Assembly (NCBI GenBank): GCA_001788835.1
Contig: MFXK01000025.1
Coordinates: 1 to 38,750, forward strand
Length of the DNA stretch: 38,750 nucleotides
Direction: 5' to 3'
From: Candidatus Peregrinibacteria bacterium RIFOXYB2_FULL_33_20
GTDB taxonomy: Bacteria > Patescibacteriota > Gracilibacteria > UBA1369 > GWF2-33-10
The position numbers and the translations under genes were made by a program. Position 1 is the stretch's first letter, and the number at the start of each line of letters is the position of its first letter. The notes beneath the pieces were generated by a model, which saw nothing but the letters and a program-made list of their open reading frames with translations, was not told the origin of the DNA and did not search any database. Below are positions 6,739 to 38,720 of this stretch, piece by piece.

Positions 6739-6824
6739 AAACTCACCCTAAATCCCTCTCTTCAAAGAGAGGGACTTTTTTTACCCCCTCTCTTTCAAGA
6801 GAGCGGGGGCAGGGGGGTGAGTTT
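6739..6824. repeat. 86-bp palindromic REP/MITE-like element
   Basis: Terminal inverted repeats are AAACTCACCC (6739-6748) and GGGTGAGTTT (6815-6824). Inside is a perfect hairpin, TCCCTCTCTT (6753-6762) with AAGAGAGGGA (6765-6774), followed by a T run. A second hairpin pairs CCCCC (6784-6788) with GGGGG (6805-6809). The element encodes the last residues of the overlapping O-antigen ligase ORF. The half-sites flanking the IS110 element (37486-37503 and 38682-38695) belong to the same family. Confidence 0.85.
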
Positions 6825-8143
6825 AAAATTCCAAGTAAAGTAAATAAAGTCAGAACCGTAGATGAATCTTCAAAATTGTGTAGAAATATTGAAGCAGTTG
6901 CAAGCCCAATCAAACTTAGTGCTATAAATAAATTTTCATTTAAATATTCTTTTTGTTTCAGAGAATTTTTTAAATTTTGAAATATTATCTGTCCTAAAAT
7001 AATCATAAATAAAATCATTCCAATTATTCCTAACTCAACAGCAAGCTGAAGATACCAATTTTCGGTTATTATTGCTTTATTATTTTCATTTTCAAATCTA
7101 TATGAAGCAGGTCCAGCCATTCCAAGACCAATGCCAAAAGAATTTTCTTTAATAATTCGTATGGCATTTTGCATAAGTTCAAAATGTTGTGAAGTTGATT
7201 CTGGCTTCAAAATACTGTTTTGGAATTTTGTAAATTTTACTAATGGGAATAAAATTAATAAAAAAATGATAATTATTGATAAAAATATAGTAAAAAATTT
7301 CTTCAAATTAATTTTAAATTCATATTTTTTATAAATATAAATTATAAGCAAAATTAAAATTTCCGTAACAAAAGCAATCCATGCACTTCGAGAAAAAGTT
7401 AGGACCAAACTAATCAAAGCTAAAAATCCAATTGAAAACCAAAATTTAGATTTTTTCTCCAAAAATTTCCAAATTATCAAAGGTAAAACGACAATCAAAT
7501 ATGCTCCATACTGATTCGGCCCTGCAAATGTGCCTGATAATCGACAAAAGTCTGAATTTTCGATTTTTTGACAAAATGCAAGCGCCTGATTTGGATACCA
7601 TGTGCTCCAGTCATTACGAAAACCAATAAGAATTAAATTTTCTGGTCTAATAACAAAAATTATCAATCCTAATAAAATTGCAATTGCAGATGAAAATAAA
7701 GCTATATTAATTAATTTATAAATTTCTTTTTTATTGAATGTATTTAAACTAAAAATTAAAAAAGTAATTAAAAAGAAAAAATCATATCTAAACCCCCAAA
7801 CCCATTGAGAAATTCCAAAGGCTGGTTTTGCATAACAATAGGAAAGGAAGGCGAGAAAAGCAAATCCTCCAATTGTCATTCCTGTGAAAACAGGAATCTT
7901 CTTGTTTAAAAAATTAAGATTCCTGTCGGAGTTTACCCCATACTTCGATATGGGGCAGGAATGACAGACGGTCAAAATTCCTATCAAAACAATCAAAATT
8001 TCTTTCCATGAGCTTAAAGATAAACTCAAAATTTTAAATTGTTGCAAATTAAGTCCGTAATTCAAAAAAGTTACAACAATAGCATGAAAGGGAAGTAATG
8101 CTAGTAATACAATTGATGATCTGGATATTATTTTTTCAAGCAA
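6743..8143 (-). CDS. O-antigen ligase/polymerase-like membrane protein (Wzy/WaaL family)
   Basis: The 466-residue protein is strongly hydrophobic, with about ten predicted membrane segments. The conserved Wzy_C region is seen in LTFSRSAWIAFVTEILIL and, after a large loop, ENWYLQLAVELGIIGMILF. Such proteins join or polymerise lipid-linked glycans at the membrane. The start is TTG at 8143, 10 bp after the rpsT stop; no ATG is suitable. Two palindromic elements are read through in frame. Residues 59-90 (including SCPISKYGVNSD) come from the element at 7874-7966, and the last roughly 25 residues come from the repeat at 6739-6824. The native C-terminus has therefore probably been replaced. The substrate is unknown. 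Confidence 0.85.
   Translation of the reverse strand: MLEKIISRSSIVLLALLPFHAIVVTFLNYGLNLQQFKILSLSLSSWKEILIVLIGILTVCHSCPISKYGVNSDRNLNFLNKKIPVFTGMTIGGFAFLAFLSYCYAKPAFGISQWVWGFRYDFFFLITFLIFSLNTFNKKEIYKLINIALFSSAIAILLGLIIFVIRPENLILIGFRNDWSTWYPNQALAFCQKIENSDFCRLSGTFAGPNQYGAYLIVVLPLIIWKFLEKKSKFWFSIGFLALISLVLTFSRSAWIAFVTEILILLIIYIYKKYEFKINLKKFFTIFLSIIIIFLLILFPLVKFTKFQNSILKPESTSQHFELMQNAIRIIKENSFGIGLGMAGPASYRFENENNKAIITENWYLQLAVELGIIGMILFMIILGQIIFQNLKNSLKQKEYLNENLFIALSLIGLATASIFLHNFEDSSTVLTLFTLLGILNSPPCPRSLEREGVKKVPLFEERDLG
7874..7966. repeat. in-gene palindromic element, family A (copy 1)
   Basis: Perfect 11-bp terminal inverted repeats, TGTCATTCCTG (7874-7884) and CAGGAATGACA (7956-7966), bound a 93-bp element. 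Nested stems include CCTG/CAGG (7881-7894), CAGGAATCTT (7891-7900) with AAGATTCCTG (7916-7925), and CCCCATA/TATGGGG (7936-7955). It is read in frame within the O-antigen ligase gene. A related hairpin lies in uvrC at 12337-12363. Confidence 0.85.
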
Positions 8144-10221: not shown

Positions 10222-12642
10222 ATGCCTAAAAAATCAAAATTTACGATAAAAAATATCAAAATTCCCGGTTGTCCAGGCATTTATAAAATGATTGATAAAG
10301 AGGGAAGAGTTTTGTATATAGGCAAAGCCAAAAATCTCAAAAAACGAGTTTCATCATATTTTCGACAAAGTAAAGATAAAGGTGTGCGCATCAATAAAAT
10401 GATTCAACAAATCACTGATATTCAATTTATTACGGTTGATTCAGAATTAGAAGCCATTTTGCTAGAAACTAATTTAATTAAAGAATTAAGACCTAAATAC
10501 AATATTTTAATGAGAGATGATAAAAACTTTGTTTATATCAAAATCAATCAAAATGAGGACTTCCCCACCCTGGAAATTGTTCGAAAAGTACAAAAAGACG
10601 GTGCTAAATATTTCGGGCCAAAAACTGCCAAATGGAAGGTGGAAAAGACGTTTGATTTACTTCATAAAATTTTCCTTTTCCGAAATTGTCAGTTGGGCAT
10701 TTTTTGGCGAGGTGATCATCAGATAGATATTACCAACAAGGTCATTAAATATCCGTGCTTGGAATACCATATTAAGAGGTGTTGTGCCCCATGTATAGGA
10801 CTAATCAATAAAGAAGAGTACAAAAAAATGATTAATTCTATTATTGATTTTTTGAACGGCAAATATGAGGATGTTTTGGAAAAATTGAAGGAAGATATGA
10901 TGCAAGCAGCGGCAGAAAAGAAATTTGAAATTGCGGCAAAGTTGCGTGATCAATTACTAGCTGTTCAGGATATTATGCAAAAACAAAAAATTTCTTCTCC
11001 AGATCAGATAAATCAAGATTTGATTAGTTTTGTCGTCAAAAATGCAAAAATATTTTTTAATTTATTTATGGTTCGTGATGGCAAATTGATCAATCAGGAA
11101 AATTTTATTTTTGAAACAACAGTTTTAACGAAAGATTCTGGACTAGGTGGAATGACAATTGATGCTGAAATTTACGAAGCTTTTATTGAGCAATATTATG
11201 TTACTGCGGCAGATATACCAAATGAAATTTTGATTTCAGAAGATCTTGAAGAAAAAGATCTCATGGAAGAGTGGCTATCTAATATCAAAAATTCAAAAGT
11301 TAAAATTACCATCCCGCAAAAGGGTAAAAAAAATAAGTTATTGGAATTATCACAGAGAAATGCGGAAAATTTTGCCACCCAAAATCAAGCTAAATTTGAA
11401 TTAGAAAAAACCAGAACTGTTGATGCGATGGAATTTTTGAAAAATATTTTGACTGAGAATGGATTGAAAATTGAACGGTCTCTAAATCGTATTGAATGCT
11501 ATGATATTTCTCATCTAGCCGGTACGCATACAGTCGGATCAATGGTGGTTTTCGAGAAAGGCAGAGCCAAAAATTTTGATTATCGGCATTTTCAACTTAA
11601 AACTCTAAAAAAAGGTGAGATTGATGATTTTAAATCTATGGCAGAAGTTTTGGAAAGAAGGCTTAAATATTTAAGTAATCAGTGGTTAACAATCAGTCAA
11701 CACTCTGCAGAAGCTTTACCTCAGAGGATAGATGGTCAGTATAAAGTACGAAAAGCGAAAAAAGATGATTTAAAAGATATCTTTAAATTAAGAAAAGCTT
11801 GGGGGCGCCAAAATGACTGGATTAAGTCACCAGAAGGTTTTTTTGTTTTGGAGATGGAAAACAAAACAGGAAAAAAAATTATTGGTGTTATTGCTCTTCT
11901 TGAAAAAGATAAAACTCACTTTGAAATTACCTCTTTTTTAATTAATAAGAAATATAAGGATAAATCATTGGAAGATTTGCTGCTTAAAAGGATTCTAGAA
12001 GAATGTCCACAGTCAAAAGTTTATGTCCTCTGCGTGGAGGATGCCAAAGATTATTATCTTAAAAAAGGCTTTGAAGAATTAAACATTATGCCAAAAGTTT
12101 TTGAAGGCGGTGCGCAGATTTGTAAGAAAGAATATAATGGAAACTGCCTTGCTTTAATTTATGACAAATATAAACACGCCAAAGACCAGGATTCTTCTTT
12201 CAGCTCCAAACCTGATTTAATTGTGATTGATGGTGGTAAAGGCCAACTTAGTAGCGCCCATCACGCCATGAAAAATTTAAATATAGATATTCCGATGATT
12301 GCCCTCGCCAAGAAAGAAGAGGAAATATTTTTCTTATGTCATTCCCATGAAAACGGGAATCTTAAACTTTCAAAAGACTCCCCTGCTTTGCAATTACTGC
12401 AAAGGATCAGAGATGAAGCTCATCGTTTCGCTATTACTTTTAATAAACATAAAAGAATTAAAGCCATGACTCATTCTGTACTTGATGAAATTCCTGGTAT
12501 TGGACAAGAAATCAAAATGCAATTATTGCAAAATTTCGGATCAATTGATGGAATCAAAAAAGCTGATTTTCAAGATTTAAGAGCTATAATCGGCGAAAAT
12601 AAAGCCATAGTTTTGCAGGAATATTTGTTAGCAAAAAATTAA
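10222..12642 (+). CDS. uvrC: excinuclease ABC subunit C with an inserted GNAT-like domain
   Basis: UvrC makes both incisions in nucleotide excision repair with UvrA and UvrB. Order of parts: GIY-YIG nuclease (about 15-95; CPGIYKMIDKEGRVLYIGKAK), a Cys-rich segment (CLEYHIKRCCAPCIG), a UVR motif (AAAEKKFEIAAKLRDQLL), then an RNase H-like nuclease starting at CYDISHLAGTHTVGS (about 426). The family's VIDGGKGQL block follows only at about 668, and EAHRFAITFNKHKR and C-terminal HhH motifs (DEIPGIGQEIKMQLL) end the protein. At 806 residues it is about 200 longer than usual. Residues about 505-650 resemble a GNAT acetyltransferase (YKVRKAKKDDLKDIFKLRKA; YYLKKGFEELN), placed inside the RNase H fold. 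A palindromic element adds residues around 706-714. A TCAGT repeat lies at the left edge of the insert. Confidence 0.93.
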   Translation: MPKKSKFTIKNIKIPGCPGIYKMIDKEGRVLYIGKAKNLKKRVSSYFRQSKDKGVRINKMIQQITDIQFITVDSELEAILLETNLIKELRPKYNILMRDDKNFVYIKINQNEDFPTLEIVRKVQKDGAKYFGPKTAKWKVEKTFDLLHKIFLFRNCQLGIFWRGDHQIDITNKVIKYPCLEYHIKRCCAPCIGLINKEEYKKMINSIIDFLNGKYEDVLEKLKEDMMQAAAEKKFEIAAKLRDQLLAVQDIMQKQKISSPDQINQDLISFVVKNAKIFFNLFMVRDGKLINQENFIFETTVLTKDSGLGGMTIDAEIYEAFIEQYYVTAADIPNEILISEDLEEKDLMEEWLSNIKNSKVKITIPQKGKKNKLLELSQRNAENFATQNQAKFELEKTRTVDAMEFLKNILTENGLKIERSLNRIECYDISHLAGTHTVGSMVVFEKGRAKNFDYRHFQLKTLKKGEIDDFKSMAEVLERRLKYLSNQWLTISQHSAEALPQRIDGQYKVRKAKKDDLKDIFKLRKAWGRQNDWIKSPEGFFVLEMENKTGKKIIGVIALLEKDKTHFEITSFLINKKYKDKSLEDLLLKRILEECPQSKVYVLCVEDAKDYYLKKGFEELNIMPKVFEGGAQICKKEYNGNCLALIYDKYKHAKDQDSSFSSKPDLIVIDGGKGQLSSAHHAMKNLNIDIPMIALAKKEEEIFFLCHSHENGNLKLSKDSPALQLLQRIRDEAHRFAITFNKHKRIKAMTHSVLDEIPGIGQEIKMQLLQNFGSIDGIKKADFQDLRAIIGENKAIVLQEYLLAKN
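11675..11700. repeat. TCAGT-type short repeat, copy 2 (inside uvrC)
   Basis: GTAATCAGTGGT (11675-11686) is identical to 1681-1692 and is followed by a diverged AATCAGTCAA. It encodes the linker just before the GNAT-like insert of UvrC (SNQWLTISQ). Confidence 0.45.
12337..12363. repeat. in-gene palindromic element, family A (copy 2, short form)
   Basis: A 27-bp hairpin unit matches 7874-7900 at 24 of 27 positions. The stem ATTCCC/GGGAAT spans 12341-12346 and 12355-12360. One U-A pair in copy 1 is C-G here, a compensatory change. It encodes CHSHENGNL in place of the short loop normally found before DSPALQLLQRIRDEAHRF in UvrC. Confidence 0.75.
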
Positions 12643-30710: not shown

Positions 30711-32705
30711 TTATTGAGCCCTGAAATTACCGCCGCCTTCTCCACGCAATAAATTTAAAGGCGAAGCGGAACTTGGCGTATTTGTTAGACTTGTAGTAAC
30801 AATTCTTAAAACTATCGAATCCCCTTCTTTTAAACCGCTGGTGATTTCCGTATTATTATCATCAGCGAGCCCTGTTTCTACTGTTTGACGTTGAGGTCTT
30901 TCGTTAGAAGTCACTTCGTCAGTTATTTTGTCAATTTTTTTATAAACACTGTAATCAGTTAAAGTTTGGATAAATTGATCGTTATTAGTTGATTTAATTG
31001 CTTCTGTTGGTACTAGCAAAATATTTTCTTTAGAATCAATAATAATTTGAACTGTAGCGCTCATGCCCGGCTTAATACGTTCATCTTGCCCATTCAGTGA
31101 AATTTTAACATTGTAGCTAACTACTCCCTGACTAACGGTACCAATGGTATCAATTTCCGCTACCTGTCCATCAATAGTTAGCCCATCAATAGCGTCTAAT
31201 GATAAGATAGCTTTTTGTCCTACTTTAACTTTCGCCGCATCAACTTCATTGAGAGAAATTTGAGCCATTTGATTTTCCGTCAATAAAGTAGCTATGGCAG
31301 TTGAAGATGACACTACATCACCTTGTTGTACGCTAAGATTAGTAATTATCCCATCAAAATTAGCTTTAATATAATATTGTAGCAAATTATTTTTGGCGTC
31401 AGCTAAATCGCTAGTTCTTTGTTGGATAGTCAGCTTTTGTGATTTAATGTCCAAAGGATCAGTGCCGTTTTTTAGTTCATCGAGATTAGCTTGAGCTTGT
31501 GCCAATTTCTCTTTAGCGCTGGCAATATCATCATTACTGGCTCCATTTTTAAGGTCTTCTATGGCGTTTTTTTTCTCACCTAGTGTTTCCTGAGCCGTAT
31601 CAATAGCATTTTGAGCCTTGGCTAAATTAATCGGCAAATCCTGTTTGATGGTATCAATGGTGTCCTTATCACTTTGTAAAGTATTGATCATGCCGTTAAT
31701 GGTAGAAATATCGCTTTGTATTATAGAATACATGGCATCAATAACACTTGATATTGAGTACTGTTTGTAGTTTTTTAATTCAATGGCATCAAACATATTT
31801 TTGACGTCCTCTAAAGTTTTGGAAATTATTTTAACTGTATTTAAAGTTTCAGAAATTAATTGATATTTAGTGTCATTATCACTAGTAGTGTTGGCATTCT
31901 GAAAATCAAGCACATTTGCATCATAGAGTGCTGTAGCCGCGCCATAATCATTATTGAAATTTATTATGTAAATAGAATTATCGCCTAATATCAATTCATA
32001 ATCTCCTATATATTCACCTGGTTTAGCATCTGTACCTCGCACATTTTTCAAATCATTCATTAATTGCGGTAATTGTAAAAAAGTATTAGATACAGCGGTA
32101 TAGCCATAATCATAAGAATTTTGTAAATCTAAGATGGCATTAGATTGGATTTGGTTGTAATTATTTTTAGCATCTTCCAGGTCCCTAGTAGCTTGCTCCA
32201 TCGTATTTTCTGCGGCTGTAATATCATTTTGATCAGCCGGAGCTAACAAGGTATTTAAAGCCCGTTGCTCATTATTAACCGCGTTTTCAGCCTGAATCAA
32301 AGAACTCTGGCTGGGTGGTTGCGTCATTTTACTAAGCGCTATTTGAGCGTTAGATAAACTGATTTCATTATCACTAATTTGTTTCTCGGCATCTTTACTG
32401 TCTATTTTCCCAATAATATCACCAGCTTTAACTTTATCACCATTTTTTATTGATAAATGTTGAAGTCGTCCTGACTGTTCGGGTTTAATATCGATTTGAT
32501 TAGTCGGTATCACTTGACCTGTGCCTGAAACAGAAATTTCTATATTGCCAATAGTAACTTTAGTAATTTCATAATGAGGAATAGTAACTGTTGGAAATAT
32601 TTTACCATAACTGTAATATCCAGTTGATAGCAAGATAATCCCAATAAAAACACTGTGTATTTTATGCGTGACAATTAAATGTTTTAAATATTTCAATTTT
32701 TCCAT
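30711..32705 (-). CDS. MacA/HlyD-type membrane-fusion adaptor with an unusually long helical hairpin
   Basis: The 664-residue protein has one N-terminal anchor helix (about 15-30). A split lipoyl domain (IDIKPEQSGRLQHLSIKNGD ... ANFDGIITNLSVQQGDVVSS) flanks a very long helical region (about 100-440), followed by beta-barrel segments (PGMSATVQIIID) and a C-terminal membrane-proximal domain. MacA adaptors are about 370 residues; here the hairpin region carries about 250 extra, including a Tyr/Asn-rich stretch (GDYELILGDNSIYIINFNND). Without an outer membrane the adaptor may span the wall or S-layer (inference). The gene heads the exporter operon, divergent from the response regulator. Confidence 0.9.
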   Translation of the reverse strand: MEKLKYLKHLIVTHKIHSVFIGIILLSTGYYSYGKIFPTVTIPHYEITKVTIGNIEISVSGTGQVIPTNQIDIKPEQSGRLQHLSIKNGDKVKAGDIIGKIDSKDAEKQISDNEISLSNAQIALSKMTQPPSQSSLIQAENAVNNEQRALNTLLAPADQNDITAAENTMEQATRDLEDAKNNYNQIQSNAILDLQNSYDYGYTAVSNTFLQLPQLMNDLKNVRGTDAKPGEYIGDYELILGDNSIYIINFNNDYGAATALYDANVLDFQNANTTSDNDTKYQLISETLNTVKIISKTLEDVKNMFDAIELKNYKQYSISSVIDAMYSIIQSDISTINGMINTLQSDKDTIDTIKQDLPINLAKAQNAIDTAQETLGEKKNAIEDLKNGASNDDIASAKEKLAQAQANLDELKNGTDPLDIKSQKLTIQQRTSDLADAKNNLLQYYIKANFDGIITNLSVQQGDVVSSSTAIATLLTENQMAQISLNEVDAAKVKVGQKAILSLDAIDGLTIDGQVAEIDTIGTVSQGVVSYNVKISLNGQDERIKPGMSATVQIIIDSKENILLVPTEAIKSTNNDQFIQTLTDYSVYKKIDKITDEVTSNERPQRQTVETGLADDNNTEITSGLKEGDSIVLRIVTTSLTNTPSSASPLNLLRGEGGGNFRAQ

Positions 32706-37723: not shown

Positions 37724-38674
37724 ATGATAGAAAAAACTTATGTTGGAATAGATGTTTCAAAAGCCAAATTGGATATTGCTATTAGAAGGGAAGGGTTGAG
37801 GAAAATAGCTACATTTATAAATTCTCAGGAAGGTATAGAAGAATGTAGAAAATGGCTTAGTGATAACAATGCTAAAGAAGCTATCATTGTAGTTGAATCA
37901 ACTGGATCATTGCATTGGCTTGTTTGTTTATTATTAACAGATTATGGATATGATGTCCGTTTAATTAATCCACTCATAACAAAAAAATATCAAAAATCAT
38001 CTATTCGTGATGCAAAAAATGATAAAATAGATGCTATAAGATTAGCTGAAATAGGAAGAATAGAAGAAAATTTACCTCAATTTTTTGATTCTCGTGAAAC
38101 ATTAAAAATAAAAAGATATGAATCTCTTTTAGCTAAACTGGTACATGCAAAACAACAAATAAAAAGAGCGTATGAAGATGCTATAGAGGCTAGTACAATT
38201 ATTGATGTTTCATTAAATTTAGATTGTATTCTGGAATGTATAGAATTATTAGATACAGCCATTGATGTTTTAAAAAAAATGATTACAGATACAGCAGATG
38301 ATTTAGCTAAAGAAATATCACAAATTAAAGGTGTTTCCATATTTCAGGCAACAGTATTAAGTACTGCAATTAAAGGAAGATCTTTTGAGAATAGAGATCA
38401 AATGATTGCGTTTTTTGGATTAGATATAAGAGTTAGGCAAAGTGGTACATGGGAAGGGAAAGGATGTTTATCTAAAAGAGGAAATCCATTTTATAGAAAA
38501 ATATTATTTCAGATTGGATGGAGTTTATGGAGACACAATGAAGAATACAAAGCTTATTATGATTCAATTCATGGAAGAGGAAAGCATTATTATACTTGCA
38601 TATTGGCCACTGCTCGAAAGTTCTTACGTTATTTCTTTAGAGTTTATAAATTTTCCCTTGTTAATTCCTTATAA
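37724..38674 (+). CDS. IS110-family transposase (bridge-RNA-guided recombinase)
   Basis: The 316-residue protein has an N-terminal RuvC-like DEDD domain with D10 (YVGIDVSKAKLDIAI), E58 (IIVVESTG), D100 and D103 (RDAKNDKIDAIRLAE), then a coiled-coil linker (about 125-200). The C-terminal Tnp domain has KGVSIFQATVLSTAI, AFFGLDIRVRQSG with the probable catalytic S240, and KRGNPFYRKILFQIGWSL. Residue spacing closely follows IS621 (D11, E60, D102, D105, S241 as I recall). It would join donor and target under guidance of the RNA encoded upstream. All catalytic residues are present and the frame is intact, so the element may be active. The stop codon lies within the left-donor sequence. Confidence 0.95.
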   Translation: MIEKTYVGIDVSKAKLDIAIRREGLRKIATFINSQEGIEECRKWLSDNNAKEAIIVVESTGSLHWLVCLLLTDYGYDVRLINPLITKKYQKSSIRDAKNDKIDAIRLAEIGRIEENLPQFFDSRETLKIKRYESLLAKLVHAKQQIKRAYEDAIEASTIIDVSLNLDCILECIELLDTAIDVLKKMITDTADDLAKEISQIKGVSIFQATVLSTAIKGRSFENRDQMIAFFGLDIRVRQSGTWEGKGCLSKRGNPFYRKILFQIGWSLWRHNEEYKAYYDSIHGRGKHYYTCILATARKFLRYFFRVYKFSLVNSL

Positions 38675-38681
38675 CTTGTCT

Positions 38682-38695
38682 CTCTTCAAAGAGAG
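38682..38695. repeat. right half of the palindromic repeat interrupted by the IS element
   Basis: CTCTTCAAAGAGAG, followed by GGGG, matches the right arm of the hairpin at 6758-6773. Joined to CCGTCCCT-CT on the left it would rebuild a hairpin with an AAGAGAGGG arm. Confidence 0.65.
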
Positions 38696-38720
38696 GGGGA
38701 TTTCTTACGAATAAATACAT

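Follow-up and report, generated by a model that had tools for sequence, protein, structure and literature searches.

In the 38,750-nucleotide stretch of DNA analyzed here (the window), uvrC (10222–12642, + strand; PF08459, PF22920, and PF01541) contains a 27-bp hairpin that closely resembles one end of a palindromic element in an O-antigen ligase family gene (Wzy_C; 6743–8143, − strand; PF04932). We asked what these hairpins are, how their host proteins accommodate them, and which enzyme might move them.

Two intragenic hairpins and their repeat family

The preliminary description had reported that the two 27-mers match at 24 of 27 bases, that one stem pair is compensatory, and that both host frames stay open. 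All three points held: the copies differ at three positions, one pair is T-A in the ligase and C-G in uvrC, and both genes read through. The uvrC copy (12337–12363, + strand) is a single TGTC-tagged REP unit with a CTT tail and a 4-nt loop; an A×C mismatch at the pair next to the C-G pair leaves seven of eight stem pairs, and the element encodes C706-H-S-H-E-N-G-N-L714. The ligase copy is a head-to-head dimer of 93 bp (7874–7966, no strand assigned) that encodes 31 residues and is bounded by TGTCATTCC and GGAATGACA. Its short-loop unit (7874–7900, + strand; hairpin 7874–7897) has an 8-bp stem, a 4-nt loop, and a CTT tail. The loop of its long-loop unit (7919–7966, − strand) contains a second hairpin, CCCCATATCGAAGTATGGGG; long-loop relatives occur elsewhere in the genome (C10:36171 and C13:76206) and at one end of a GIY-YIG element of the kind described below. 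A DNA-level search of plasmid records with the 93-bp element gave no match. Exact matches to TGTCATTCC-N-GGAATCTT in the window are confined to 7874–7900 and 12337–12363, with 0 expected from 100 dinucleotide shuffles.

The genome search proposed in the preliminary description, run with TGTCATTCC-N6–20-GGAATC, gave 58 matches in the 1.5-Mb assembly versus 0 in the reversed control, and a looser hairpin pattern gave 105 versus 0. The TGTC tag is present in both window copies and in nearly all genome units, the main tail classes are CTT(AA) and CCAGTA, and several copies form head-to-head dimers or inverted pairs of about 69 bp. Pairing holds in 97.7% of stem cells across 27 distinct units (8 pairs, 4-nt loop), and 20 stem changes are double-sided; the covariation score was reached by none of 500 shuffles, and sliding the partner destroys the signal. 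These data confirm a dispersed palindromic repeat family of more than 50 copies, with the uvrC and ligase hairpins among its members. Single units and head-to-head dimers would have spread through the chromosome of this CPR genome. The host was placed as a Gracilibacteria-type CPR bacterium by the nearest named uvrC relatives, which are Peribacteria and Peregrinibacteria MAGs.

CGTC-tagged REPs (Di Nocera et al., 2013; PMC3733652) have a CGTC or TGTC tag, an 8- or 9-bp stem starting AT, a 4- or 5-nt loop, and a short tail; they are mostly head-to-head dimers, and they also lie within genes, many of them for replication and genome repair, including uvr. The super-family takes in Neisseria dRS3, RPE-4, and RPE-6; its CGTC-1 family includes dRS3 and Rickettsia conorii RPE-6, with a CCA tail in most members but not all, and the published survey found no transposase adjoining CGTC REPs (PMC3733652). 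On their sequence features, the uvrC and ligase hairpins fit the published definition of TGTC/CGTC-tagged REPs and appear to be of the CGTC-1 type. They share with CGTC-1 REPs the tag, the 8-bp stem starting AT, the 4-nt loop, head-to-head dimers, dispersed copies, and sites within uvr and other genes. RAYT association is likewise absent: a profile search of the host genome for RAYT/Y1_Tnp (PF01797) found none, and Y1_Tnp loci are unflanked. The differences are the tail (CTT for intragenic units, CCA for those at GIY-YIG element ends), the CPR host, and a GIY-YIG partner, which the published survey does not describe.

The suggested resemblance to Rickettsia palindromic elements (RPEs) is supported, because RPE-4 and RPE-6 are classed as CGTC-tagged REPs, a class assignment in PMC3733652 on which the comparison rests. 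In both cases peptides are inserted in frame in many conserved proteins and are absent from orthologues; most RPE families are longer, however, and only RPE-4 and RPE-6 fall within the CGTC super-family. The further proposal that the family is of an undescribed kind was not supported, since its features fit a published super-family already known inside uvr genes, and the idea of a novel RPE-like family confined to CPR bacteria was rejected because the features match CGTC-1 REPs. Like REPINs mobilized by RAYTs (GTAG REPs), the system described here would combine non-autonomous inverted hairpin pairs with an autonomous copy that has one small enzyme gene, but the tag is CGTC/TGTC rather than GTAG, and the enzyme is a GIY-YIG nuclease rather than a Y1 tyrosine transposase. 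No paper on such REPs in CPR bacteria was found by titles and abstracts in the open-access literature, and their heavy use in a CPR genome seems to be unreported.

A second repeat family is present in the window as a CTCTCTTCAAAGAGAGGG-type palindrome at 6745–6810 and 38680–38708, and also in MurD (L006); the encoded peptides are SLEREGV-like and lie at the C terminus of the ligase and within MurD. The end of a transposase-like ORF (37724–38714), IS110-type by eye, adjoins one copy, and the palindrome could be the target of this ORF. An HlyD-like protein ends in NTPSSASPLNLLRGEGGGNFRAQ (about 30711–30790), which looks like another repeat-derived tail.

In-frame insertions in host proteins

When copies were mapped to coding and intergenic DNA, another check proposed at the outset, 27 of 35 CTT-tailed units lay in frame within ORFs of at least 150 amino acids, whereas none of the 25 CCA-tailed units did. 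A unit has six reading frames, five of them open, and host genes use these five; the stop-containing frame is used in no host ORF. Many units may therefore survive inside genes because five of six frames are open and a short insert is tolerated in loops. Multiple units are found in GuaA (two copies), DHFR (two or more), and a CsaB-type pyruvyl transferase (three), and dimers in glucose-6-phosphate isomerase (PGI), PdxT, and PrmC. Besides UvrC and the O-antigen ligase, further hosts are dihydroorotase (PyrC), MurD, HisIE, a HisH-like amidotransferase, FtcD, an ATP-grasp protein, WecG-type and GT4-type glycosyltransferases, and a TsaC-type protein with the repeat in a C-terminal extension. The encoded peptides CHSCE.RN, VIPA.AGI, IPA.AGMT, and DSC.RRND recur across approximately 20 unrelated proteins.

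When aligned to solved homologues, GuaA, PGI, PdxT, and MurD each carry additional residues at the repeat, and the DHFR alignment has gaps around both repeat clusters. The check for precise absence in sister genomes gave a clear result for GuaA: the 14 extra residues of the first repeat have no counterpart in 17 of 17 alignable order relatives, namely same-family G001 (68% identical) and 16 others, in an alignment that leaves out two further fetched fragments whose span does not include the repeat site. One relative (G020) has six unrelated extra residues in the same loop.

In uvrC, the preliminary description had allowed that orthologues might carry the same residues as ordinary sequence; the uvrC genes of about 28 order relatives lack them. 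The net gain in the loop is +3 residues relative to most relatives and about +5 relative to T. maritima UvrC. The uvrC copy is therefore not a clean +9-residue insertion; the small gain means that the loop lost native residues or had them replaced. The contig of same-family G001 (G001:C14; L032) breaks in uvrC at the REP position, as expected if a repeat interrupts assembly at that point. Residues about 500–620 of UvrC form a GNAT-like acetyltransferase domain inside the RNase H endonuclease region; Pfam matches are weak (PF00583 and PF13673), and several order relatives align across the region.

The 31 element codons of the ligase replace a loop that is unrelated in relatives, which points to loss or replacement of native residues as in uvrC. 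The corresponding loop of the ligase from another family of the order (G023; L072) carries a different repeat-like peptide, HTPVTLSLSKGESES, and this one loop can be read as repeatedly invaded.

Hairpin-flanked GIY-YIG nuclease genes

A 432-bp element in the host genome (G000:C10:60562–60993) has a single ORF of 95 amino acids, a GIY-YIG nuclease (PF01541; E = 7e-19), and its ends are two tagged, CCA-tailed hairpins. The genome also contains a second full-length GIY-YIG ORF and several fragments; its copies have CCA-tailed ends, whereas the uvrC and ligase units are CTT-tailed. Two ORF-less copies (L025 and L189) keep both subterminal sequences of the full element and are MITE-like.

Thirty usable Patescibacteria loci were chosen by protein similarity only. 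An outward-tagged hairpin lies within 150 bp of the GIY-YIG ORF in 26 of them, on both sides in 17, and hairpin density is 6.56/kb near the ORF versus 0.23/kb further off. Control loci rarely had a flanking hairpin: 0 of 23 for distant GIY-YIG genes of the order, 0 of 5 for Y1_Tnp (RAYT-type) genes, 0 of 22 for the ligase, and 1 of 29 for uvrC. By eye, the four loci outside the count have oppositely oriented palindromes (L145) or related but divergent ones (L129, L139, and L149). Stem sequences vary between genomes yet remain paired, and in unrelated genomes the gene sits 10–90 bp from both hairpins, whose tags point outward. Flanking hairpins with the CTT tail of the uvrC class occur at four loci (L128, L138, L145, and L146). 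The most likely autonomous form is a roughly 430-bp element in which two outward-tagged hairpins surround one nuclease gene of about 95 codons.

Hairpin load was compared with nuclease presence in 380 Patescibacteria genomes, with tables compiled by hand and a strong nuclease match defined by a cut that we chose (E below about 1e-18). Strong matches were present in 101 genomes, where the median number of REP-pattern matches was 24, versus 1 in the others. At least five REP-pattern matches were found in 85 of 101 nuclease-positive genomes versus 33 of 279 others (odds ratio 39.6; Fisher p = 1.7e-40, kinship ignored). Y1_Tnp genes, present in 177 of the 380 genomes, are weakly linked to hairpin load overall (odds ratio 3.2), and the link vanishes within nuclease-positive genomes. 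There were exceptions: no strong nuclease match was present in 12 genomes that have at least 20 pattern matches, and the pattern count is below five in 16 of the nuclease-positive genomes. The 16 other sampled genomes of the window's order have 0–2 matches and no strong nuclease match, versus 105 hairpin matches in the host genome. Two order members outside the sample gave three strong nuclease copies with 8 matches (G023) and 7 matches with no strong nuclease match (same-family G001, 73% complete).

Beyond CPR bacteria, tblastn detected the nuclease in 35 plasmid records, including A. lipoferum, S. meliloti, Sphingobium, N. aromaticivorans, and Neisseria, which are taxa or genera among the CGTC-REP carriers (PMC3733652). 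Inverted tagged hairpins or related palindromes surround most of these genes in alpha-, beta-, and gamma-Proteobacteria, Planktothrix, and Spirosoma, so that Proteobacteria, Cyanobacteria, and Bacteroidota join Patescibacteria as phyla with flanked GIY-YIG genes; a Radiobacillus UPF0213-type gene and a Sphingomonas paeninsulae gene are unflanked. The strict hairpin detector scores 8 of 19 non-CPR loci, because several loci use other stem starts or a CCTC tag, and the remaining flanks were read by eye. In A. lipoferum (Azospirillum), the element lies between sufB and sufC and is absent from three close relatives. A Sinorhizobium allele without GIY-YIG elements keeps a solo symmetric palindrome (L155 and L190), which may be the original target or the remnant of a deletion between the two ends. 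Neither comparison yielded an exact junction or a target duplication. An empty-site search in Rhizobium CIAT894 mostly matched IS4 fragments.

The catalytic residues Y8, Y19, R29, and E66 show no variation among 35 proteins from several phyla. The nearest structural neighbor of the AlphaFold model of the nuclease (pLDDT 88) is UPF0213 BH0048, followed by Slx1, the latter with a weak E value. Slx1 is a nuclease of branched DNA. UPF0213/YazA-type proteins and Slx1 have their catalytic fold and catalytic residues in common with the small nuclease; Slx1 differs as a larger eukaryotic protein, and hairpin flanks are absent from both the UPF0213-type Radiobacillus gene and the distant GIY-YIG genes of the order. 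Given these structural neighbors, it is plausible, as a reading of the predicted fold, that the nuclease cuts at a hairpin it recognizes.

A candidate mobilizing enzyme

Hairpin flanking of nuclease genes in several phyla suggests that the nuclease is the long-missing engine of these REPs. We consider it probable, with moderate confidence, that the repeats are REPs of the CGTC-1 type and that the GIY-YIG element is the autonomous form, which moves ORF-less derivatives in trans. Movement of the hairpins by the nuclease, and each step of the reaction, is what we infer from these patterns: the enzyme would recognize the extruded hairpin (tag, stem, and tail) and cleave there, host repair would copy or join the element at a new site, native target DNA would often be partly lost at that site, and dimers and MITE-like copies would be ORF-less derivatives mobilized in trans by the GIY-YIG element.

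Chance similarity between uvrC and the ligase as ordinary coding sequence has a vanishingly small probability in our estimation. The length of the uvrC loop varies and the net gain there is slight, which would suit this reading, but shuffling predicts no matches, the genome-wide pattern and its covariation are those of a family, and identical peptide types recur in unrelated proteins; with the GuaA insertion absent in relatives, this reading was rejected. The main rival takes the GIY-YIG protein as a homing-type selfish nuclease that uses existing REP hairpins as landing targets and does not mobilize them, the REPs being old or spread otherwise. GIY-YIG enzymes are classically homing nucleases, the solo palindrome of Sinorhizobium is a possible target, and some REP-rich genomes are without the gene. 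Homing nevertheless accounts poorly for a gene so close to both outward-tagged hairpins in unrelated genomes with differing stems, for ORF-less copies whose subterminal sequences match those of the full element beyond the hairpins themselves, and for a REP load that strongly follows the gene, and we regard it as rather unlikely.

We find it improbable that a third enzyme, whether a RAYT or some other transposase, carries both the REPs and the GIY-YIG gene as passengers. RAYTs do serve GTAG-type REPs, and Y1_Tnp genes are common in the sampled genomes; against this, the host genome has none, none of the five Y1_Tnp loci is flanked, Y1_Tnp has no effect among nuclease-positive genomes, and no transposase lies beside CGTC REPs (PMC3733652). 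A RAYT partner was rejected on the first three of these grounds. Returning to the nuclease as mobilizer, it seems somewhat probable that hairpin-flanked small GIY-YIG genes are widespread, unrecognized minimal mobile elements in several phyla, and that CGTC REPs (dRS3, RPE-6, and the intragenic ones described here) are their non-autonomous derivatives, with the nuclease as the enzyme that mobilizes this super-family.

No paper linking GIY-YIG to REP-type hairpin repeats was found by titles and abstracts in the open-access literature, preprints excluded. The hairpin-nuclease link is the new part of this work, a candidate for the mobilizing enzyme that the published survey could not find (PMC3733652). 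CGTC REPs are found in many bacteria and have been described as lacking a dedicated transposase; the hairpin/GIY-YIG/hairpin layout offers a concrete, testable candidate. Annotation can mark VIPAKAGI, IPAFAGMT, CHSCEGRN, and DSCFRRND as repeat-derived peptides. The genome itself is a natural experiment on the insertion tolerance of proteins: peptides from a single repeat family have entered approximately 20 conserved enzymes.
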